Below, piece after piece: positions 1-46,697 of a stretch of 46,697 bases of DNA. Where the stretch lies: IMG/VR virus record IMGVR_UViG_3300023196_003246, positions 1 through 46,697 of that record; one strand, 5' to 3'. This DNA is from a virus. Each line of letters starts with the position of its first letter. The first letter of the stretch is position 1. The translations under genes were made by a program, and so were the position numbers. Under the pieces are notes generated by a model that saw nothing but the letters and a program-made list of their open reading frames with translations, made no database searches and was not told the DNA's origin.

Positions 1-956
1 TTTCCACGACGAGTTCTTTGTGCGATTGCGTTAGCATCGCGCTCGATTTGGAAAATAAGACCCTTAAACTTCTCAACACTCCAACGTCCGTTAGAGTCAA
101 CATCGAGGTCAAAAGTACCAGCGTTAGCAACGTTTGCTTGAGCACCAGACTCAGCACAACGATATACGGTACGAATAACTTCGCGGTTGATTTCTGCCAG
201 AATCTCAGTAGAGAGGATGTTGGCAAGTTCTGCTTCAGCATTCAGACCGTGAATTGCCTTAAGGTCTTGTGCCAGTTCCAAGCTGTACTCAGCTTTCAGG
301 GCGCGTGACTTAGCAGTAACGGTGACTTTCTCAATCGAGAATGCCATCTCGTTGAAAGCACTTCCAGTTTCGCCCAGACCTTCAGCATCGTCTGTACGAA
401 GACCTTGACCTACGCTGTAGGTAGAAGCGGTCTGAGAACCTTCTGGGTTAAGAAGACCGGGATTAGAACCAGCTTGACCAGTGGTACCCATACCAACGGA
501 ACCATTGGAGAATCCATTAGTTCTGTCGAAGTCGCTATCTTGACCAGAGAATGCGGTGTTGGCCTCATTGAAGAGTGCCTCATCGCCCGTCATGCCGCTG
601 AAGCGGGAACGCATTGCGAAGATGAGTCCAGTAGGACCAGACATTGGTTGAACGCCTGCAAGGTCATATGCGACCAAGTTAGGCATTGCGCGTCTGATCA
701 AGGAGATCAGAACGGGGTCGAAACCAGCAACTGGGGAAGAAGCGCCAGCAGAGAAACCTGCATTTGCTCCACTATTGGTGGAAACGGTAGGTGCTTCAGA
801 AAGAAACGCTCTCTCTTCAGCAAGTGTTTGTTCCTGGTTTTCCAGGAGGACTGCGGTAACAGCTCTGCGGTGGGAATCCCTAATTGGATCCATTCCCTCA
901 TAATCGAGAATGGGTGCCCACTTTTCTTGCAGAGCCTCTGTATTGGGCATTTGCAT
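1..956 (-). CDS. 23: Major capsid protein gp23, N-terminal 318 residues (cut by window edge)
   Basis: T4-like major head subunit that builds the hexamers of the capsid shell. The reading frame begins with two in-frame ATGs (956 and 950) and runs off the left edge without a stop, so only about 318 residues are present (T4 gp23 has 521). Visible cyanophage gp23 features are the opening MQMPNTEALQEKW, then PILDYEGMDPI, and the block FDPVLISLIRRAMPNLVAYD. Residues 52-55 read LSE|A, which fits the known prohead-protease consensus (L/I)xE|(A/G), so about 54 residues are probably removed during maturation, as happens in T4 (65 residues there). It follows scaffold gene 22 and protease gene 21, as in T4. 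No clear Shine-Dalgarno precedes either ATG. The family call is secure; which ATG is used is not. Confidence 0.95.
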   Translation of the reverse strand, partial: MQMPNTEALQEKWAPILDYEGMDPIRDSHRRAVTAVLLENQEQTLAEERAFLSEAPTVSTNSGANAGFSAGASSPVAGFDPVLISLIRRAMPNLVAYDLAGVQPMSGPTGLIFAMRSRFSGMTGDEALFNEANTAFSGQDSDFDRTNGFSNGSVGMGTTGQAGSNPGLLNPEGSQTASTYSVGQGLRTDDAEGLGETGSAFNEMAFSIEKVTVTAKSRALKAEYSLELAQDLKAIHGLNAEAELANILSTEILAEINREVIRTVYRCAESGAQANVANAGTFDLDVDSNGRWSVEKFKGLIFQIERDANAIAQRTRRG

Positions 957-978
957 TTTTTTAAAAAGTTAGTTTGAA

Positions 979-986
979 CATTTATG
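979..986 (-). promoter_or_regulatory. Possible late promoter of gene 23 (CATAAATG)
   Basis: On the minus strand the octamer CATAAATG lies 22 bases before the first ATG of gene 23. It matches the T4-type late core NATAAATA except at the last base. Its position mirrors the exact TATAAATA sites elsewhere in this window. Capsid genes are expected to have their own late promoter, but the imperfect match in AT-rich DNA keeps confidence modest. Confidence 0.45.
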
Positions 987-995
987 ATTTAAAAA

Positions 996-2090
996 TCACT
1001 TTTTGGCAGCTCTAGAGAGAGTCTGCAGATAGGCTTGCATCATTGGGGATACCTCTTCGGAGATAACCTCATTAGTAGAAACCTCTTCTGAAAGATTCTC
1101 AGAGGTGCTTGGAGTTCCGACATTCTCAGGGAAGTAAGAACTTCTCAGAGTTGTCAGTTTCTCGCGATAGTCTGTCTCACTTTCAAACTCAACTTTTTCT
1201 ACGAGAGTAGCGATCTTATCCCTTTGGGAATGTGCAAGACCTTCAGTTACCTCTGCGAATACTACGTCAGCGGTGGACTCTGCTAATCTCTTGTTTAGAG
1301 CAACGTTATTAACGATTTGCTCATTGAGTTTTGACTCCATTTCATCTAGTTTATCTACCATGCTCTCGAGAACATCATATTTATCTTCAGGGATAGTTAC
1401 ATAATGATCTTCAAAAAGTGCCTTCATTCCGTCAAGGAATGATTCGGTCACTTCTGCTTTGAGACCTTGCTCAACTTGAAGTGCGTTCTCTTGGAACCAC
1501 TCGTCGGCAACGTACTCCAAATAGGAGTCAAGTCTCTCGGTGAGTTCTTCTTTGATTGCAACAACTTCTTCAACAAGTGCTTCTTGATATGCTTCAGTCA
1601 AAGACTCTTGCATTTCAGAAACTTTTGAAGTTACTGCTGCTTCAAAAATAGTACGTGCTTTATCTTGGAATTCTTCAGAGAGTTCTTCACCCTCAAAGAG
1701 TGCTTGAACATCTGCTTCGATGTCAATACCTTCTTCCTCGATAATCTCTTCTTCAGTTTCTTCCGCTTCAGCAACAACTTCGTCAGCTGCTACTTCCTCT
1801 TCGGCAACAACTTCGTCAGCTGCTACTTCCTCTTCGGAAACTACTTCCTGGTCTTCGTCGACCTCAACTTCCTCGGCCGCTGCGGCTTTGGAATTGACGA
1901 CATCCTTAACTTGTGCAAGAGTGCCAGAAGGATCCTTCAGCTTATTGCTGTCGTCATCTGGTCTTGAATTTTCGGGAGTAGGACCGCCGAGATCCTCAAA
2001 TGGAATGCCAGCAGCATTCATTGGTTCGGCAGGTGCAGCCCCTTTGGTTACTACGCTTTCCATTTCTTGTAAATTGGTACCAACGGACAT
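996..2090 (-). CDS. 22: Prohead core scaffold protein gp22
   Basis: Main internal scaffold around which the gp23 shell assembles; in T4 it is later degraded to small peptides by gp21. The 364-aa product (T4: 269) is extremely acidic in residues ~70-150, with runs of Glu, Val and Ala including an exact duplication of an 11-residue unit. The rest (about 140-330) is a predicted long alpha-helical, coiled-coil-like stretch rich in Glu, Lys and Leu, typical of phage scaffolds. The C-terminus resembles T4-type gp22 (SPMMQAYLQTLSRAAKK). It sits between protease gene 21 and capsid gene 23. An exact TATAAATA late-promoter sequence lies 36 bases upstream of the ATG; no good Shine-Dalgarno is visible. 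Confidence 0.9.
   Translation of the reverse strand: MSVGTNLQEMESVVTKGAAPAEPMNAAGIPFEDLGGPTPENSRPDDDSNKLKDPSGTLAQVKDVVNSKAAAAEEVEVDEDQEVVSEEEVAADEVVAEEEVAADEVVAEAEETEEEIIEEEGIDIEADVQALFEGEELSEEFQDKARTIFEAAVTSKVSEMQESLTEAYQEALVEEVVAIKEELTERLDSYLEYVADEWFQENALQVEQGLKAEVTESFLDGMKALFEDHYVTIPEDKYDVLESMVDKLDEMESKLNEQIVNNVALNKRLAESTADVVFAEVTEGLAHSQRDKIATLVEKVEFESETDYREKLTTLRSSYFPENVGTPSTSENLSEEVSTNEVISEEVSPMMQAYLQTLSRAAKK
1771..1836 (-). repeat. Exact 33-bp tandem duplication inside gene 22
   Basis: Positions 1771-1803 and 1804-1836 are identical 33-bp units in frame with gene 22, each encoding EEEVAADEVVA (register approximate). The repeat lengthens the acidic segment of the scaffold by 11 residues without shifting the frame. 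The perfect identity suggests a recent slippage or recombination event. Confidence 0.9.
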
Positions 2091-2126
2091 GTGAATTATG
2101 TACTAAATTAATTTATTACATGTATT

Positions 2127-2134
2127 TATTTATA
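2127..2134 (-). promoter_or_regulatory. T4-type late promoter TATAAATA before gene 22
   Basis: An exact TATAAATA on the minus strand, 36 bases before the gene 22 ATG (2090) and just past the gene 21 stop. T4-like late promoters consist of essentially this octamer, read by a phage sigma factor (gp55) with gp33 and the sliding clamp. It would let scaffold and capsid be transcribed independently of the long upstream late transcript. Confidence 0.75.
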
Positions 2135-2136
2135 AA

Positions 2137-2787
2137 TCAAAGATTTGATAGGAAATTATTCCACAAATCTAACTTATGTTCTTCAAGTGATCTTTGACTA
2201 ACAAGATCGTTTATTCTTTTTTTAGATTGTTCGGCAAGTTGTTCACGAAAGATTCCTCCTTCCCAAACCCATTCCTTTCCTTCCATAATTCCATTGACGA
2301 AAGCGTCAGGAGCGGAAGGATCGGCAACAATATCAGCAGCAGTTGCTAACTGAAAATCTTCGCCAACAATCTTACATCCTTCATTAGTAGTTTGGAGTGA
2401 ACCAACACCACGAGAAGAAACGCCAAGCATTACCCCCTCATCAAGAAGTGAAGATGCAATTTTGCCCATAGGGGTAGAAAGGATTTGTGCCTTTCCTTTA
2501 AAATTGTTACCTTCTTGTACTAGAGAAGTAATTTTATGAGAAACCCGATCAAGGTTTACGGTAGGACCGTCAGGATGACCAAGTTCGCCAAGAGCACGAC
2601 CCTTATTTACAAAGGTTTCGTTGTAACGACCTACTTCACGAGCAAGGGTTGACATGGGATACATTCTCCCATTGCGATTCTTAATCTCACCTTGAAGGAA
2701 TACGCCTTCAATGTAGAGTTTCTTATTCGCACCCTTACCTTCAGTAAGAATTTTTACATTTGTTACTTCTTCTGTGATGAGTTTCAT
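2137..2787 (-). CDS. 21: Prohead core serine protease gp21
   Basis: Maturation protease of the prohead (herpesvirus-assemblin/U9-type serine protease family) that cleaves the scaffold, core proteins and gp23 after (L/I)xE. Length is 216 aa (T4: 212). Visible family motifs are NRNGRMYP around residues 38-44, GELGHPDGPTVNLDRVSH (His71 and His84; one is the catalytic His) and GVSSRGVGSL around 122-131, holding the nucleophile Ser. An ILTE|G motif at residues 13-17 and ITE|E at 4-7 could be self-cleavage sites. The gene lies directly upstream of gp22, with only 4 bases between it and the preceding 89-aa cistron. It has no clear Shine-Dalgarno. Confidence 0.93.
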   Translation of the reverse strand: MKLITEEVTNVKILTEGKGANKKLYIEGVFLQGEIKNRNGRMYPMSTLAREVGRYNETFVNKGRALGELGHPDGPTVNLDRVSHKITSLVQEGNNFKGKAQILSTPMGKIASSLLDEGVMLGVSSRGVGSLQTTNEGCKIVGEDFQLATAADIVADPSAPDAFVNGIMEGKEWVWEGGIFREQLAEQSKKRINDLVSQRSLEEHKLDLWNNFLSNL

Positions 2788-2791
2788 TTTT

Positions 2792-3061
2792 TTATGCGGT
2801 AAATCCTACTTTTGCACCCAATACACCAGCATTTGCGGCAAATACGCACTGAGTAGGGTTTTTTTCAAGATATTCTACAGTTCCTGTTGGCATTGTAAAA
2901 GATCCAACAACAGTTCCACTTTGAGTTTCTACCACAGTAACAAGATGATTGCCACTATGCGTATTAACTAAACGGACAACAGTTGCCTGAGTAAAACTGA
3001 CGGCAGCTCCAGTTGTTGTAGGCAGAGCTGCCTCGGCACCTTTACATAAAGTCCTTGCCAT
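2792..3061 (-). CDS. Small conserved virion-region protein, 89 aa, function unknown
   Basis: I recognise this as a type of small protein found between portal and protease genes in cyanophages, but no function is known to me. The sequence is rich in Thr, Val, Ala and Gly, alternates in a beta-strand-like way (for example HLVTVVETQSG and GSFTMPTGT) and has no membrane segment or catalytic motif. Its ATG overlaps the stop of the upstream acidic cistron in a TAATG, with an AGGGGA purine run just before it, which suggests translational coupling. By position it takes the place of T4 gene 68 (a prohead core protein), but its composition is unlike a core protein. A minor capsid or decoration role is possible, only from context. 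Confidence 0.75.
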   Translation of the reverse strand: MARTLCKGAEAALPTTTGAAVSFTQATVVRLVNTHSGNHLVTVVETQSGTVVGSFTMPTGTVEYLEKNPTQCVFAANAGVLGAKVGFTA

Positions 3062-3324
3062 TATTCTTCCCCTTCTGTATCAGTTTCGGTTTCGGTTTCA
3101 AGTTCTGACGTTGGTTCTTCATCAGTAGGTTCATTACCTACTTCAGTTTCACCATCAACTTCACTTTCAGGATATTCAAACTCTTGACCAAACATTCCAT
3201 TAGAAACATAAGGTCTTGCAATATCAACCCGTTCTGCTGCTTTTGCATACAAAACTTCTTTCATTTTATCGCTAATATCAGACGGAGCTCCATCTGTAGC
3301 GATCAAATCTATAACATCTTCCAT
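3061..3324 (-). CDS. Acidic prohead-core-like protein (gp67-like), 87 aa
   Basis: Short protein with an alpha-helical N-terminal half (DKMKEVLYAKAAERVDIARP, then MFGQE) and a C-terminal tail made almost wholly of Glu, Thr and Asp. Its place directly after portal gene 20 is that of T4 gene 67 (pip), a small acidic internal prohead core protein, and the composition fits. I therefore call it gp67-like on synteny and composition, not on a sequence match. The gene ends in a TAATG overlap with the 89-aa gene. An exact TATAAATA lies 26 bases upstream, so it probably heads a late transcript covering 67-like, 89-aa and gene 21. Confidence 0.7.
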   Translation of the reverse strand: MEDVIDLIATDGAPSDISDKMKEVLYAKAAERVDIARPYVSNGMFGQEFEYPESEVDGETEVGNEPTDEEPTSELETETETDTEGEE

Positions 3325-3350
3325 GAAAAATCAATGTATTAATATAATAA

Positions 3351-3358
3351 TATTTATA
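3351..3358 (-). promoter_or_regulatory. T4-type late promoter TATAAATA before the 67-like gene
   Basis: Exact TATAAATA on the minus strand, overlapping the last codons and stop of portal gene 20, 26 bases before the ATG at 3324. The spacing matches the other late-promoter candidates in the window. Confidence 0.75.
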
Positions 3359-5081
3359 ACTCAGCCTTTCTAGTGTCTTTTTGGTAGTTAGCATCTACCA
3401 CTTTTGCCATTGCTTCAACGTCTGGTTCTGTAGGAATTTCCCCCATTGACATTGGATCTGAATCAATTCCTCCCATTCCAGCACCATCGGCAGGTAATTC
3501 TTCTTCAGGTTGTGGAAGTGGTTGACCGGTTACTGGATCAATTGTGGAAGGATCTGGAATAATTCCCTTTTTAATCTCATCTTCAATCTGTCCATCAATC
3601 TCAATGATTTCTTGATCAGTTTGGCGAAGAATTCTCTTACGAACAAACTCGGTAGAATAATACTTACCAATGAATGGTTCAATTTGAGCAAGATTTCCCA
3701 GTCTGCCCTGAATCATTTCAGATTCTTTCAACTCTGCAAACTGATTATCATACAGGAAATCATATTGAATATGATCTCTCATTACTTCCCAATCGTCTGG
3801 AGAAACAATATTCTTAAGAATCAATTGAGTTTTCAACATATCGTTGAACATCTGTGCAAAACGCTTTCTCAGACGACCAACAAACTTAGAAAACTTAAGT
3901 TCATCGCGAAGAATTTCTGAAGAACGTCCAAGATTAAATCCACCATCAGCAGCAATTCTGGATTCAGGAACTCCAAGTGCTCTATAAAGTTTCTTTTGGA
4001 AATACTCAATATCGGAAAGTTCTCCTAAGTTTTGTCCACCTGGAAGAGTTGTGATTTCAGTTCCTCTACCACCTTCTCTTCTAGGAAGCCAGAAATCTTC
4101 CATCATAGACATAAACTTCTTATCATCACGAACTTCGCCAGTCTGTGCATTATATGCAAGTTTATTTCTATAGCGAGACATGACCTCACGAAGGTATTGC
4201 TCTGCCTTTACTTTAGGAAGATTGCCGACATCAATATAAAAAATACGACGTTCTGGTGCTCTTGACAATCTATAGATTACTAAAGAATCCTCAATCATTC
4301 TAAGTTGATTGAGTGCCTTGATTGCTTTATGGAGATATGAAAGAACAGTATTCTTATTCCTATCTACCAAACCAGATGTACAATATGTTACTGTATCTTT
4401 TGCAATTTTTATTGATTTTGTTTTTCCACCAAGACTACTTGTTGGATAATTTGGAGATGGGGTATATTGAAAAAATTCTTCAAACTCAGGACCATTTTGA
4501 TACTCTAATGGATTTTTACCATTTCCACTAACTCTTACCGCTCCAGTATCATATTTGCCATTTGGATCTTTTTTCTCTTGACGAATATATTTCATCTTGA
4601 GAGGGTCAATATATCTAAGTTCTTTAATTCCTTCTTGAGGTGCTTTTAAATCGATAACCTTGAGATAATAAACTCTTCCATCAACATACCAGTTGCGGAA
4701 AATCTCATGGGATTTTCTATCAAAATCTAAAATCTCTTTAAGATATTTGAATTCTTCCCTAATTTTTTTCTTAAGACCATCGCTAGCATTAAGATTTGAT
4801 AACTCAATTTCTACTGGAGAGTCATACAAATCACTAACGATTGCTTCATTAACAACATCTTCAATCGCACCATCCGCTTCGGGATGTAGCGACATTTCTC
4901 TATATCTTCTTATTAAATCATGCTCTGTTTTGAAGACACCTTCAATATCGACATATTGTCCATAAAATCCACTAGAAACATAGTTATCAACCCCGTCCTG
5001 ATTAGTTTCAGGAACGGGGGAAATGACTGAAGGTGACTTATTTTGATTTCCGTCAATTTTAAAACCAAAAAGTTTTGCCAT
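3354..5081 (-). CDS. 20: Portal vertex protein gp20
   Basis: Forms the dodecameric portal through which the terminase pumps DNA and to which the neck attaches; it also nucleates the prohead. Length is 575 aa (T4: 524). Cyanophage gp20 hallmarks include ETNQDGVDNYVSSGFYGQYV near the N-terminus, RYREMSLHPEADGAIEDVVN, the portal core block SRAPERRIFYIDVGNLPK, then QTGEVRDDKKFMSMMEDFWLP and GGQNLGELSDIEYF. The C-terminal ~50 residues are Pro/Glu/Asp-rich. This gene is the usual marker for cyanomyovirus diversity surveys. It follows tail tube gene 19 after 32 bases. Confidence 0.96.
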   Translation of the reverse strand: MAKLFGFKIDGNQNKSPSVISPVPETNQDGVDNYVSSGFYGQYVDIEGVFKTEHDLIRRYREMSLHPEADGAIEDVVNEAIVSDLYDSPVEIELSNLNASDGLKKKIREEFKYLKEILDFDRKSHEIFRNWYVDGRVYYLKVIDLKAPQEGIKELRYIDPLKMKYIRQEKKDPNGKYDTGAVRVSGNGKNPLEYQNGPEFEEFFQYTPSPNYPTSSLGGKTKSIKIAKDTVTYCTSGLVDRNKNTVLSYLHKAIKALNQLRMIEDSLVIYRLSRAPERRIFYIDVGNLPKVKAEQYLREVMSRYRNKLAYNAQTGEVRDDKKFMSMMEDFWLPRREGGRGTEITTLPGGQNLGELSDIEYFQKKLYRALGVPESRIAADGGFNLGRSSEILRDELKFSKFVGRLRKRFAQMFNDMLKTQLILKNIVSPDDWEVMRDHIQYDFLYDNQFAELKESEMIQGRLGNLAQIEPFIGKYYSTEFVRKRILRQTDQEIIEIDGQIEDEIKKGIIPDPSTIDPVTGQPLPQPEEELPADGAGMGGIDSDPMSMGEIPTEPDVEAMAKVVDANYQKDTRKAEL

Positions 5082-5113
5082 AATAATTTCTGCTGTGCTT
5101 CTTATTTAACTAT

Positions 5114-5704
5114 TTAGTTAATATCTTCACCGCCAGCATTTGAACCATTGCCCTTAGTAGCTTCCCACCACTGAACTTGGAGTTCAACAGTGAATTCTTG
5201 AATACCTTGAGCATCATAACCAAGTTCAATTGGTGAAACCTGAGTTGGGAATACATCGTAGAAACGATATGTTCTCAGAACAGAACCATCACGATCAAGT
5301 TGCATGACATATGCATCTGCTTGATATGTTGCAGGATCAGTTAATCCAGTATTATCTGATACTCTATTGATAGTATTCATCCAACGCTCCATGGCAGAGC
5401 GAATCGAGAAGTCTGTATCATTGATAACAGTGACGGTCCAAGAATCGAAGGTTCTATCACCTGCGATTTTCAGAACACGACCTCTGAATGGTACTTCAAT
5501 CTGTTGAATGTTAGATGCTGGCATATTAGCACCTTTAACCAAAAATCTAGTTTTTTCTAGAGTATCGGAATCTGGTTGTGCAGCGTCTGGGAAGTTCAGA
5601 ACGACTTCGAAGAGATTGGCGCGAGCGCCACCACCCGTCAATTTACTCTTGAAGTCAGTAATCTTCCTTAGTGGGGGCGGATTGATTTGCTTATAGTTAG
5701 CCAT
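5114..5704 (-). CDS. 19: Tail tube protein gp19
   Basis: Subunit of the rigid inner tail tube through which DNA passes on injection. The 196-aa product (T4: 163) starts MANYKQINPPPLRKITDF and contains the family block LVKGANMPASNIQQIEVPFRGR near residues 52-73 and a DTDFSIRSAMERWMN motif. The late segment IELGYDAQGIQEFTVELQVQ is typical of tube proteins. The gene lies 24 bases after sheath gene 18, as in T4, with an AAGG purine run 9 bases before the ATG. Confidence 0.95.
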   Translation of the reverse strand: MANYKQINPPPLRKITDFKSKLTGGGARANLFEVVLNFPDAAQPDSDTLEKTRFLVKGANMPASNIQQIEVPFRGRVLKIAGDRTFDSWTVTVINDTDFSIRSAMERWMNTINRVSDNTGLTDPATYQADAYVMQLDRDGSVLRTYRFYDVFPTQVSPIELGYDAQGIQEFTVELQVQWWEATKGNGSNAGGEDIN

Positions 5705-5728
5705 TAGTTTTGACCTTGAGAAGAAAAA

Positions 5729-7966
5729 TTAAACTGAACCAATAACTTCTTCAAACGCAACTCCAGTTCTAGTAGCAACAAAGGTAAGACCGATGAAGTT
5801 GATAGAACGTGCAGGTTTGATGAAGATGTCAGCAACAAATTCATTGGAATCAATGACTGCTGCTGTGTTGTTTGTCTCATCACAAACAACTACAAAATCC
5901 TGAATGCCCCTCTTAGATTGAACATCGCGAAGGAATGGTTCTACAATATTGACAAAATTGGTTCTAGTGATTTCGTCGTTGAACTCAAAAAGGAAATCCT
6001 TGGCAGCAGCAGAAATTGCATCTTCGAGATAGATGAATAAGCGGCGAACATTGATTCTATCAAATGCTGAGGACTTACCAAATCCAGTCTTATCACCAAA
6101 GAGAATCATACCTGCTCCAGGAGAGAAGATAACTGGATTGATTCTGCTTGAATACAGAAGATCTCTTTGCTTCTTACCAGGATTATATGCAAGTTTAACT
6201 GCATTCAAAATTGCACCTCTAGAAGTTCCAGCAGGTGAGAACCATGGGAACTGTTGAATATCAGTTCTGGCACAAGTACCAGCGATATCTCCATTCAGAG
6301 GTACATAGCGGAAAGTATCATTGAAGCGGTCATACATGTACTTGTAACCACTATCAAAGACTCCATATGTAGTTGAAGTTGCAGCAGAATAGAATCCAAG
6401 AACATTTTCTGTAATTTTGTCAATATTATTGACTGTTACAGTTCCGACTTTGTTATCACTAATAAATGCACCTCTATATGGTGAGATGAATGCAACAGCA
6501 TCTTTTCTTGCTTCGGCAACCGCAATACACTTATTAGCAAGTGCTTGTGCCTGTTCCTTAGGATAATTTGCAGAACCCATAAGAATGAAGTCTACTTCAT
6601 ACTCTTCAGTGTTCTCAAACTTAGTCAGACCAGAAACAATATCGTCAAGTCCTGAATGCAATGAACCAGCAGTTGTGTAATCTTTGGTATCACCACCAGC
6701 AGTAGCAGCATAGTTTGTACCACCTGCAAGCGCAGCGGTAAATGCACCCGAACCAGCAAAGTTTACATTCTTTGCATCTTGATCCCAACTAGTATCATCA
6801 TCAAGTTCAAAGGAACTACCCCCATTGTCACTATGTGCGATTGTTGAAATTCCAACAGGTGCAGAACCACCAAAGATGTACTGTGAGTTGGTATAAAGAT
6901 ACTTTCTCCAATAAGAAGGAGACCCAACAGAGAATGTTGCATCTTTTGCCTTGGAAAGATTCAAATGCTTTTCAAGAATTGTTCCTGCATTTCCACTAAT
7001 TGTTCCTTTGTCATCAATGACAACAACGTGAACTTCGTCAAATCTTGAATTGCGTGCAGCAGCATATTCGGAAGTTCCTGGTCTATTTGCCAATTGGTCC
7101 CACTCAAGTGAACCAACACTTAATGGAATAGATTGATTTTCAAACCAATCTCTCTCACCAGAGTATGTTTCAGTAGTAAATGCTGAACTAGAACCGTTTG
7201 TATGAATAGCAACATGTCCAGTTTGTGGAAGAGCATATGCTCCGTTCTGTTGATAATCAACATTAACTACTGTTCCGCCAGCAGAAACGTGAGTTGTTAG
7301 TTTTATTGACAATTGATTAAAACCAACTTCAGTAACAACTCCTCTAAAATAACCATCTAAGAGTGAAGTTGTACCAGCACCGGCAACAGTGGTAGTTGAG
7401 GGAACTACTGCAGTAAATCCATATCCAGATATGACAGATACTGTACTGATACCTGTCAGAATTTGATCTGCACTAGAATCAATAATTGCTACTCTAATAT
7501 CATTTGCCCAAGAACCTGGATTTCTTGCAGCAACAGTTACGTTGGAGATTGCATTCTCGTCGTAACCGAGTTGTTCGTAATGTTCGGTATTCTTAATTCT
7601 TACCGTATTGACTCCGACAGCACCACCGGTGGTGCTGTAGGTTCCGACAACACCAACAAAAGCGTTTTTAAGTCCCTTAGTTGTTGTTACGTTATAGTCG
7701 TCTGCTCTTGAGACAAGCATCACACCACCATAAGCAAGGTAGGATGAAGCTACCATCCAATGCTCATAGTGCTTATCAGTTGAATACGGTCTACCGAAAG
7801 TGTTTAAGAGATCATCTTCTGATTCAATTAATTGGGGAAGATCTACAGGTCCCTTGGTGAATGGAGCAACAAGCGCCCCAATTCCACCAGAGACTGGATC
7901 GACTCTTCCAATAGTTAAATCAACTTCTCTTACTACAATTCCAGGAGATGCTAAATTTAGGGGCAT
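5729..7966 (-). CDS. 18: Contractile tail sheath protein gp18
   Basis: Subunit of the sheath that contracts to drive the tube through the host envelope. At 745 aa it is longer than T4 gp18 (659). The N-terminus SPGIVVREVDLTIG and the C-terminal region with GKSSAFDRINVRRLFIYLED and FVADIFIKPARSINFIGLTF are diagnostic of sheath proteins; the middle is a variable Gly/Ser/Thr-rich surface domain. An AAGGAG Shine-Dalgarno sits 9 bases before the ATG, and a late-promoter variant lies 36 bases upstream. Confidence 0.96.
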   Translation of the reverse strand: MPLNLASPGIVVREVDLTIGRVDPVSGGIGALVAPFTKGPVDLPQLIESEDDLLNTFGRPYSTDKHYEHWMVASSYLAYGGVMLVSRADDYNVTTTKGLKNAFVGVVGTYSTTGGAVGVNTVRIKNTEHYEQLGYDENAISNVTVAARNPGSWANDIRVAIIDSSADQILTGISTVSVISGYGFTAVVPSTTTVAGAGTTSLLDGYFRGVVTEVGFNQLSIKLTTHVSAGGTVVNVDYQQNGAYALPQTGHVAIHTNGSSSAFTTETYSGERDWFENQSIPLSVGSLEWDQLANRPGTSEYAAARNSRFDEVHVVVIDDKGTISGNAGTILEKHLNLSKAKDATFSVGSPSYWRKYLYTNSQYIFGGSAPVGISTIAHSDNGGSSFELDDDTSWDQDAKNVNFAGSGAFTAALAGGTNYAATAGGDTKDYTTAGSLHSGLDDIVSGLTKFENTEEYEVDFILMGSANYPKEQAQALANKCIAVAEARKDAVAFISPYRGAFISDNKVGTVTVNNIDKITENVLGFYSAATSTTYGVFDSGYKYMYDRFNDTFRYVPLNGDIAGTCARTDIQQFPWFSPAGTSRGAILNAVKLAYNPGKKQRDLLYSSRINPVIFSPGAGMILFGDKTGFGKSSAFDRINVRRLFIYLEDAISAAAKDFLFEFNDEITRTNFVNIVEPFLRDVQSKRGIQDFVVVCDETNNTAAVIDSNEFVADIFIKPARSINFIGLTFVATRTGVAFEEVIGSV

Positions 7967-45195: not shown

Positions 45196-45225
45196 TATAT
45201 AGAGATATCTCTCTGGCAAAAGCAA
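45196..45225 (-). promoter_or_regulatory. Candidate sigma70-type promoter with palindromic spacer, before the oxygenase gene
   Basis: On the minus strand TTGCTT (45220-45225) and TATATA (45196-45201) are 18 bases apart. The spacer is largely the perfect 12-bp palindrome AGAGATATCTCT (45201-45212), a possible operator. The match is weaker than the promoter at 44.4 kb. Confidence 0.45.
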
Positions 45226-45263
45226 GACTTTATAGCTTAATGGTACCTATGCGTTTTATAAAC

Positions 45264-45281
45264 GGGGGGCGGGGGGCGGCG
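45264..45281 (+). other. G-rich tract in the intergenic gap
   Basis: The plus strand holds two runs of six G separated by one C, followed by CGGCG, in the 174-base gap between the oxygenase gene and the 58-aa gene. It is sharply unlike the AT-rich surroundings. Two long G-runs plus flanking GG could allow a G-quadruplex, but the loops would be very short. The remainder of the gap shows no gene. Confidence 0.6.
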
Positions 45282-45312
45282 CAACTGCTAATCACGAACC
45301 AACGCTGCTGTT

Positions 45313-45341
45313 ACTTAGGGGGAGGATTAGTCCCCCTAAGT
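45313..45341 (-). terminator. Strong 11-bp hairpin after the 58-aa gene
   Basis: Perfect inverted repeat ACTTAGGGGGA / TCCCCCTAAGT with a 7-base loop, starting one base past the stop of the 58-aa gene. There is no T-tract on either side, so it may be a terminator of a non-classical type or an RNA-stabilising structure rather than a standard intrinsic terminator. Confidence 0.55.
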
Positions 45342-45342
45342 G

Positions 45343-45519
45343 TTAGTGACGAACGATTAAGTCTTTAGTGTTAAGACTTAGTGCGTCCAATTGTCTATTG
45401 ATTGAATCAATCTGTTCCACATTTTTAGTAAGATGTAAACACATAATTAAGTGATTGCGTCTTTTAAGTGTACGGAATGCATCTGATCTTTGTTGTGCGT
45501 TGGAAAGAATGTTAGTCAT
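45343..45519 (-). CDS. Small protein, 58 aa, function unknown
   Basis: Reading frame MTNILSNAQQRSDAFRTLKR onward, basic in its first half with one Met/Cys-containing hydrophobic stretch (NHLIMCLHL), helical second half (VEQIDSINRQLDALSLN). It sits between two hairpins (45313-45341 downstream, 45547-45564 upstream) like the other small genes of this strip. No Shine-Dalgarno is evident, which lowers confidence. I do not recognise a family. Confidence 0.5.
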   Translation of the reverse strand: MTNILSNAQQRSDAFRTLKRRNHLIMCLHLTKNVEQIDSINRQLDALSLNTKDLIVRH

Positions 45520-45546
45520 AATTAATCAGAAAGGTTAAAGAATAGG

Positions 45547-45564
45547 AGGGGCATTGCTGCCCCT
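45547..45564 (-). terminator. Hairpin after the 92-aa gene
   Basis: Perfect 7-bp inverted repeat AGGGGCA / TGCCCCT with loop GCAA (minus strand), 10 bases past the stop of the 92-aa gene and followed by the moderately T-rich CCTATTCTTT. A weak terminator or RNA-end hairpin. Confidence 0.5.
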
Positions 45565-45574
45565 TAGATTTAAT

Positions 45575-45853
45575 TTACAACCAGTCGTGCCACTTAGTAC
45601 CGAATGATGCCATCATATCGTCATCGGATGGATCCCAGTCTGCTGACTCCTCCTCCCAGACCTCCTCAATGGCACCCCACTGATCTTGCGCTACAGGTCG
45701 ACCTGATACCTGTTCGAACCACTCAAGGGCATCGTCAACGGAGCACCCAGCGTGTTCCTGAATATATTCGCGGATCGCAGGAAGATCCAAGATCGCGTAT
45801 CGATCCTGCTCCCGCTCATAAGCATCGAGTGAGGTGTTGTGGAAATCGGTCAT
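45575..45853 (-). CDS. Small acidic protein, 92 aa, function unknown
   Basis: Starts MTDFHNTSLDAYEREQDRYA and is strongly acidic toward the end (EEVWEEESADWDPSDDD), finishing WHDWL. The middle EYIQEHAGCSVDDALEWFEQ looks helical. I chose the ATG at 45853, which is exactly where the repeated leader element ends; a TTG 15 bases upstream in the same frame also reads open. The leader differs by one base (45865) from the two copies before the duplicated gene. GC content is visibly higher than in the structural genes. Family not recognised. Confidence 0.6.
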   Translation of the reverse strand: MTDFHNTSLDAYEREQDRYAILDLPAIREYIQEHAGCSVDDALEWFEQVSGRPVAQDQWGAIEEVWEEESADWDPSDDDMMASFGTKWHDWL

Positions 45854-45910
45854 CGGTCTGGGTTTCAACTGAATTAATTGTACAGCATCAGGGACCGAAT
45901 CACGATCCCT
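45851..45910 (-). repeat. Hairpin-plus-leader element, copy 1
   Basis: About 60 bases made of a hairpin (AGGGATC / GGTCCCT, loop GTGATTC, 45890-45910) followed on the minus strand by a 36-base leader ending in the ATG of the 92-aa gene. The leader holds TACAAT, a possible -10 box. The same element recurs 311 and 622 bases further right, with one mismatch here at 45865. Confidence 0.8.
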
Positions 45911-45921
45911 TAAGGTTTAAT

Positions 45922-46164
45922 TCACAATGCTTTGCAATGGTAGGTGATCGCGATTAAGTCATCATGATGATCGAACCACGTCCAACGGTAGGCGCTGCAA
46001 GGATCGCGCTCCCACTCGCATCGGTAAACGATATGAGTCATCATCGGTTGATCGATCGGACGCTTAATAGTTTGAGCGCCTAGGGTCATTGTCGGACCGG
46101 TCCGGAAGGTCAGCACTTCACAAACCTCATATGTGACAGTGGGAGAAACAGTGTTAGCAAGCAT
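45922..46164 (-). CDS. Duplicated small protein, copy 1, 80 aa, function unknown
   Basis: Starts MLANTVSPTVTYEVCEVLTF and ends in a region rich in Trp, His and Asp (RWTWFDHHDDLIAITYHCKA). Three Cys and the HHDD cluster could bind metal, but no known motif is complete. The frame is identical to the second copy. The stop is followed by CCTTAAGG and then the hairpin-leader element of the next gene. The chosen ATG is the end of the leader; TTG 46179 is an in-frame alternative. Family not recognised. Confidence 0.6.
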   Translation of the reverse strand: MLANTVSPTVTYEVCEVLTFRTGPTMTLGAQTIKRPIDQPMMTHIVYRCEWERDPCSAYRWTWFDHHDDLIAITYHCKAL

Positions 46165-46221
46165 CGGTCTGGGTTCCAACTGAATTAATTGTACAGCATC
46201 AGGGACCGAATCACGATCCCT
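46162..46221 (-). repeat. Hairpin-plus-leader element, copy 2
   Basis: Same element as at 45851-45910, with the hairpin at 46201-46221 and the leader ending at the ATG 46164 of the first duplicated gene. It carries GGAACCC where copy 1 has GAAACCC, so the weak ribosome-site-like GGA is present here. Confidence 0.8.
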
Positions 46222-46232
46222 TAAGGTTTAAT

Positions 46233-46475
46233 TCACAATGCTTTGCAATGGTAGGTGATCGCGATTAAGTCATCATGATGATCGAACCACGTCCAACGGT
46301 AGGCGCTGCAAGGATCGCGCTCCCACTCGCATCGGTAAACGATATGAGTCATCATCGGTTGATCGATCGGACGCTTAATAGTTTGAGCGCCTAGGGTCAT
46401 TGTCGGACCGGTCCGGAAGGTCAGCACTTCACAAACCTCATATGTGACAGTGGGAGAAACAGTGTTAGCAAGCAT
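46233..46475 (-). CDS. Duplicated small protein, copy 2, 80 aa, function unknown
   Basis: Identical in DNA and protein to the gene at 45922-46164, including its downstream CCTTAAGG and hairpin. With no silent differences at all, the copies either arose very recently or are kept identical by recombination; an assembly error is also possible. No recognised domain. Confidence 0.6.
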   Translation of the reverse strand: MLANTVSPTVTYEVCEVLTFRTGPTMTLGAQTIKRPIDQPMMTHIVYRCEWERDPCSAYRWTWFDHHDDLIAITYHCKAL

Positions 46476-46532
46476 CGGTCTGGGTTCCAACTGAATTAAT
46501 TGTACAGCATCAGGGACCGAATTGCGATCCCC
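46473..46532 (-). repeat. Hairpin-plus-leader element, copy 3 (diverged hairpin)
   Basis: The leader part (46473-46522) is identical to copy 2, but the far side of the hairpin has changed: GGGATC GCAATTC GGTCCC. The paired bases are kept while the loop and flank differ, which suggests the hairpin structure matters. It follows the stop of the partial gene at the right edge. Confidence 0.7.
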
Positions 46533-46543
46533 TTACAATTGCT

Positions 46544-46697
46544 TTAGAAAGCGACTAACTGATCGATGTCCCACTGATCGACCTCTTCAGCAGGCATGGA
46601 GCACCATTGATTGACGTGCTTCGTTGTGGTGATGCTGTAGCGGGTGCTGCTGCGGATCCACCCCTTACCGGGCACCAGAGCAGCGACAGCAGTTCTG
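46544..46697 (-). CDS. Partial small protein, C-terminal ~50 aa (cut by window edge)
   Basis: An open frame enters from the right edge and stops at 46544. The visible residues begin RTAVAALVPGKGWIRSSTRY and end EEVDQWDIDQLVAF. The start lies outside the window. GC content and gene spacing match the neighbouring small genes, and it is followed by the third hairpin-leader element. Family not recognised. Confidence 0.5.
   Translation of the reverse strand, partial: RTAVAALVPGKGWIRSSTRYSITTTKHVNQWCSMPAEEVDQWDIDQLVAF

Follow-up and report, generated by a model that had tools for sequence, protein, structure and literature searches.

A tandem pair of identical small genes between stem-loop leaders in a T4-like cyanophage fragment, probably arisen by leader-leader recombination

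The DNA analysed here, 46,697 nucleotides in length and referred to as the window, is the uncultivated IMG/VR contig IMGVR_UViG_3300023196_003246, which carries gp25-like, gp6-like and very long baseplate genes and is a fragment of a T4-like cyanophage (Kyanoviridae). At one end lies a slot of small genes, whose neighbour encodes a 253-aa protein that matched 103 phage records, nearly all of them cyanophages; in the named Kyanoviridae examined, gp25 stands close behind the 253-aa gene. For these two reasons, the slot appears to be the hot-spot beside gp25, between gp46 and gp25, for which the relevant passages of Sullivan et al. 2010 describe variable small hypothetical genes (PMC3037559). The GC content of the slot genes is 50-56%, versus 35% in the rest of the window, so that positions 45200-46697 form a GC-rich small-gene island beside phage genes of 35% GC; the slots of relatives look GC-rich too. 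Two other features of the window are a strong hairpin (ACTTAGGGGGA..TCCCCCTAAGT, 45313-45341) downstream of the cluster and adjoining a G-rich run, and a 33-bp tandem repeat of 2.7 copies (1760-1847) within a 364-aa ORF. On the minus strand, the slot reads W (3' part), leader L3, A, leader L2, A, leader L1 and X, with the following parts (numbers such as L005 denote loci of relatives, unlike the leaders L1 to L3):

46544-46697, minus strand: 3' part of gene W, the upstream neighbour of the slot, running off the window (ORF; phrog_5643, E=4e-13; homologous to L005:252-479)
46473-46532, minus strand: leader L3, with a stem-loop (46512-46532), a -10-like TACAAT (46499-46504) and the 5'UTR CAGTTGGAACCCAGACCG (46476-46493), followed by ATG
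46233-46475, minus strand: gene A, copy 2, 80 aa, function unassigned (ORF; relatives in L004, L005, L006 and L026)
46162-46221, minus strand: leader L2, a chimeric junction leader, with a stem-loop (46201-46221) and TACAAT (46188-46193)
45922-46164, minus strand: gene A, copy 1, identical to copy 2 (ORF and repeat comparison)
45851-45910, minus strand: leader L1, of X type (CAGTTGAAACCC), with a stem-loop (45890-45910) and TACAAT (45877-45882)
45575-45853, minus strand: gene X, 92 aa, function unassigned, the right-hand anchor of the slot (ORF; 97% identical in L012/L013, present in 12 further loci)
45547-45564, minus strand: stem-loop with a T-rich tail downstream of X, intrinsic-terminator-like (terminator scan)

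A Pfam search of A, B, C, W, X, Y and one neighbour returned no match, and among the slot proteins searched against PHROGs, W alone had a clear match, to the phrog_5643 family. AlphaFold modelled A poorly (pLDDT 61).

A preliminary description of this DNA had reported two adjacent 311-bp units, identical at every base and each holding a whole 80-aa gene. In a lag scan, one unbroken run of 346 identical nucleotides was found at a lag of 311 bp (45866-46211 versus 46177-46522), Tandem Repeats Finder gave a period of 311 with 99% matches, and a second repeat finder agreed. Each unit indeed contains, on the minus strand, a complete 80-aa ORF that opens with ATG, gene A. Identity at every base holds for units taken in register from 45866; cut leader to leader (45851-46161 and 46162-46472), they differ once, 45865 being T and 46176 being C, because L1 belongs to X while L3 and L2 belong to A. 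L1 and L3 have exactly 35 nt in common (45866-45900), and L2 is an exact chimera of the two, with its stem-loop side as in L1, the X leader, its ATG side as in L3, the A leader, and the join within the 35 shared bases. Such a chimera is as expected from unequal exchange within the 35 nt common to L1 and L3, and the doubled A is presumably placed in the virion chromosome. Excision of a circle, a chimera formed during PCR or a loop in the assembly would leave the same junction, and because this fits several origins alike, the cassette mechanism discussed below is better supported than this particular duplication event.

The three leaders, of about 59 nt each, precede A, A and the unrelated X; the last of these (L1, with the ATG of X ending at 45853) is the third copy that had already been recognized in front of an unrelated 92-aa gene. 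Read on the transcribed strand, each leader comprises an 8-bp stem-loop, a few bases, TACAAT, five bases, CAGTTGRAACCCAGACCG and the ATG, with a stem of the GGGATCG..CGGTCCC type in all three. With up to 3 mismatches allowed, the window contains exactly three occurrences of a 19-nt leader core, against 0 expected in shuffles. The -10-like TACAAT stands at a set distance from CAGT, the hexamer having been part of the search pattern, and since the leader regex demanded a TA...T hexamer, hexamer counts are circular. Because a strict sigma-70 scan of the leaders found no -35/-10 pair and the terminator scan found no T-tract after the leader hairpins, we only infer that the leaders act as promoters and as terminators of the preceding gene. 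Across 41 leaders, the hairpins that lie upstream of the -10 are more stably folded than coding controls (energy, p=0.002; z, 4e-4), and their sequences differ from genome to genome. Rfam placed no family on the leaders, even at E up to 10, the exact leader pattern with a variable gap had no match in viral contigs, and the core pattern matched viral contigs only in those of L012/L013. In five named phages, the leader pattern gave two matches in S-T4 and none in the other four, because phages differ in their leader sequences. No match came from megablast of the region against named phages or from tblastn of A and X.

Gene A has four relatives (in L004, L005, L006 and L026), in none of which was a doubled A found, and the gene X family extends over fourteen loci. 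In the loci of the A and X relatives, most small slot genes have the same kind of element in front, in a wording specific to the genome. What differs is the content of the slot: between W and X lie A-A in the window, C in L012/L013 and B-A in L005; L004 has B-A before X, but the locus starts too late to show W; L025 has B and then another gene, and L015 and L019 have other genes; B+S is also among the contents seen before X. L012 and L013, the closest relatives, were recovered in two separate metagenome assemblies; their X is the one 97% identical to that of the window, and the unrelated gene C occupies the site of A-A. Between the window and L012/L013, homology runs through W and its leader up to the start codon, halts, and restarts in the X leader. 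L3 aligns with the W-side leaders of L012 and L015, and TTGAAACCC of L1 is also present in the X leaders of L012/L013. Leader copies also stand in L012/L013 without any duplication, bearing out the earlier proposal that the leader repeats existed independently of it. Within one clade, the X leader goes with the gene, TTCCAACCAACCACC being found in L004, L005, L016, L019 and L025. Two observations on relatives may be added. L026 (NZRO01000035.1, 1400-4600) lies on a contig filed under a Flavobacteriales MAG; since both the cyanophage slot and the gene for the 253-aa neighbour are found on it, this contig is probably a mis-binned cyanophage fragment. The gene X family occurs twice in each of L020, L022, L023 and L024, possibly as older duplications, and L023 holds an 83% identical 197-nt pair (1424-1618 and 2822-3016).

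When the same region of 13 cultured ACG-2014f isolates with complete genomes was scanned for indels, six rows of gene-sized insertions came up, five of them bounded by direct repeats of 29-81 nt and the sixth by one of 13 nt; the rows represent about four distinct sites, three of them with 29-81-nt direct repeats. The 81-nt repeat holds a CCCCTCAGGGGG stem-loop, TATACT and a leader, and the insert there gives the longer isolate two extra genes, a 591-nt gene and a Dam methylase gene. The single element of the shorter isolate resembles, in its first part, the left element of the longer isolate and, in its second part, the right one. The 29-nt repeat resembles a leader but has no evident stem-loop or promoter. 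In S-SRM01, an identical 24-nt leader stands in front of two unrelated genes. A motif like GTGACAG..TGGCACA lies upstream of many stem-loop/promoter elements in L031 (ACG-2014f), at about 1-7000. The cassette system proposed at the outset finds support in comparison, both in relatives with different genes between matching leaders and in ACG-2014f isolates that gain or lose genes between direct repeats; a search for the leader elsewhere and for variation between relatives turned up both. Recombination between leaders, reconstructed from such comparisons, is what these sequences suggest.

Among 42 leaders, the UTRs of different genes in a single genome have a similarity of 0.775; for one and the same gene in different clades the figure is 0.712, and unrelated pairs give 0.716. 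None of 2000 genome-label shuffles reached 0.775 (0/2000). Across clades, leader variants track the genome, not the gene. Homology breakpoints fall within an element in 60% of 122 cases, versus 18% with shifted element positions (0/2000). Related loci enter this count in pairs that are not independent, and breakpoints tend to gather at gene boundaries in any case, a bias that the shift control leaves in. Given the common leader consensus, alignments through leaders are partly expected even without leader-leader recombination.

T4-like phages that infect gut bacteria and Vibrio are known to shuffle PeSL (promoter-early stem-loop) cassettes; Arbiol et al. in 2010 and Comeau et al. in 2014 are said to have described such cassettes in RB49/phi1, T4/PST and KVP40/nt-1. 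Like PeSLs, the elements of the window are composites, here of a stem-loop and a putative promoter, placed among the small genes of a hyperplastic region whose genes differ between relatives, and they follow the order stem-loop, -10, leader and start codon that can be read in RB49/phi1 DNA. The slot lies among the small, variable genes of a T4-type phage hyperplastic region (gp25-adjacent, Kyanoviridae), and where relatives have gained, lost or swapped genes, the changes end at the elements, with the gene-boundary bias not fully removed. As a positive control, the intergenic elements of RB49/phi1 showed TTGACA, a stem-loop GGGGATCGGCGATCCCC, TATACT and a leader with GGAG. Differences exist as well: in RB49/phi1, TTGACA directly precedes the stem-loop and GGAG the start codon, whereas the window elements have neither, and the window repeat takes in the A/C-rich untranslated leader up to the ATG. 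Between RB49 and phi1, the first 50 kb contain two gene indels, neither at a PeSL-like element, and a 30-kb end stretch contains one gene insertion at the end of a PeSL-like element, without repeat overlap. By analogy, the window cassettes resemble PeSLs in how they would work and are not a new system; comparison upholds the earlier interpretation in part, as to cassettes.

The PeSL work is cited and summarised in PMC4503421, which deals with the S-PM2 'ORFanage' (Puxty et al. 2015). This, too, is a region of orphan small genes in a T4-like cyanophage with gene gain and loss, for which PeSLs were considered; the authors saw only a sparse promoter and stem-loops there and judged PeSLs unlikely, whereas elements of the window type precede most slot genes. 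The hot-spot of Sullivan et al. 2010 has the same gp25-adjacent position and variable small hypothetical genes, but the passages describing it give no mechanism or repeat element (PMC3037559). Halovirus HF2 (PMC8707807) likewise has short intergenic repeats carrying promoters in a virus genome, but it is an archaeal virus of unrelated sequence, and the positions of its repeats are conserved, not shuffled.

It is probable that the slot is a cassette cluster with leader-leader recombination, in which A was doubled very recently by unequal exchange between an A leader and an X leader. Each small gene would form its own transcription unit behind a composite element, made up of a stem-loop that would terminate the preceding gene, a putative -10 promoter hexamer and a short leader. 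Because the elements are near-identical within one genome, they would serve as patches of homology, and recombination between neighbouring elements, to which the breakpoints point, would swap, delete or duplicate the enclosed gene. Exchange of the A leader with the X leader within the 35 shared bases would then have given the second A. Counting against this reading are the missing -35/-10 pair and T-tract, the X leader that goes with its gene within one clade, the leader-like 29-nt repeat, and the common leader consensus and gene-boundary bias noted above.

Unlikely, though worth weighing, is that the tandem copy is absent from the viral chromosome and that the A-L2-A junction is a library or PCR chimera primed by the leader, or an assembler loop. 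Template switching or a low-k loop in the 35 nt shared by L1 and L3 would produce precisely L2, the window is an uncultivated IMG/VR contig, and A is single in all its relatives. However, 35 nt is shorter than the k-mers usual in final assembly, so a graph loop would need real junction reads. Gene-level gain and loss, moreover, occurs at the same place in complete genomes of cultured phages, and the leader-slot-leader layout recurs in the separately assembled L012 and L013. It is quite improbable that the leaders are alike merely through selection for one early promoter/leader per phage and that replication slippage, for which short direct repeats are enough, duplicated A with no cassette process. 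A leader consensus common to all loci is what promoters would have, but leader variants go with the genome rather than the gene across clades, and in the shorter ACG-2014f isolate the one element present seems to join the left and right elements of the longer isolate in a chimera. Only a slim chance attaches to the tandem pair being an assembly trace of packaged mini-circles: leader recombination would have cut out a 311-bp circle (A plus one leader), and mini-circle reads mixed with single-copy genomes would have been assembled as a tandem. A circle of A would carry exactly the L2 junction, and PeSL mini-circles were reportedly observed in RB49/phi1 by Arbiol et al. in 2010; the data hold no direct sign of circles, however, and plain tandem duplication takes fewer assumptions. 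A site-specific, integron-like system shifting genes at the leader is scarcely credible: each gene is flanked by direct repeats and gene order varies, but no integrase was noticed beside the slot among the listed ORFs (no dedicated integrase search), and the exchange-point repeats vary in length (13-81 nt) and sequence, as in homologous recombination.

Little is settled about the routes by which marine cyanophages acquire and shed the many orphan genes in their variable regions, and the one cyanophage paper found to have considered PeSLs judged them unlikely at its locus (PMC4503421). Element-bounded presence and absence of genes is visible in cultured ACG-2014f isolates as well as in wild relatives, and the process is therefore testable with existing phage stocks. 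With recombination between leaders as the source of the second A, the window would have caught the copying step itself, ahead of the divergence of the two A copies. The mini-circle origin, if true, would mean that wild cyanophages make gene-sized circular cassettes able to be passed on.
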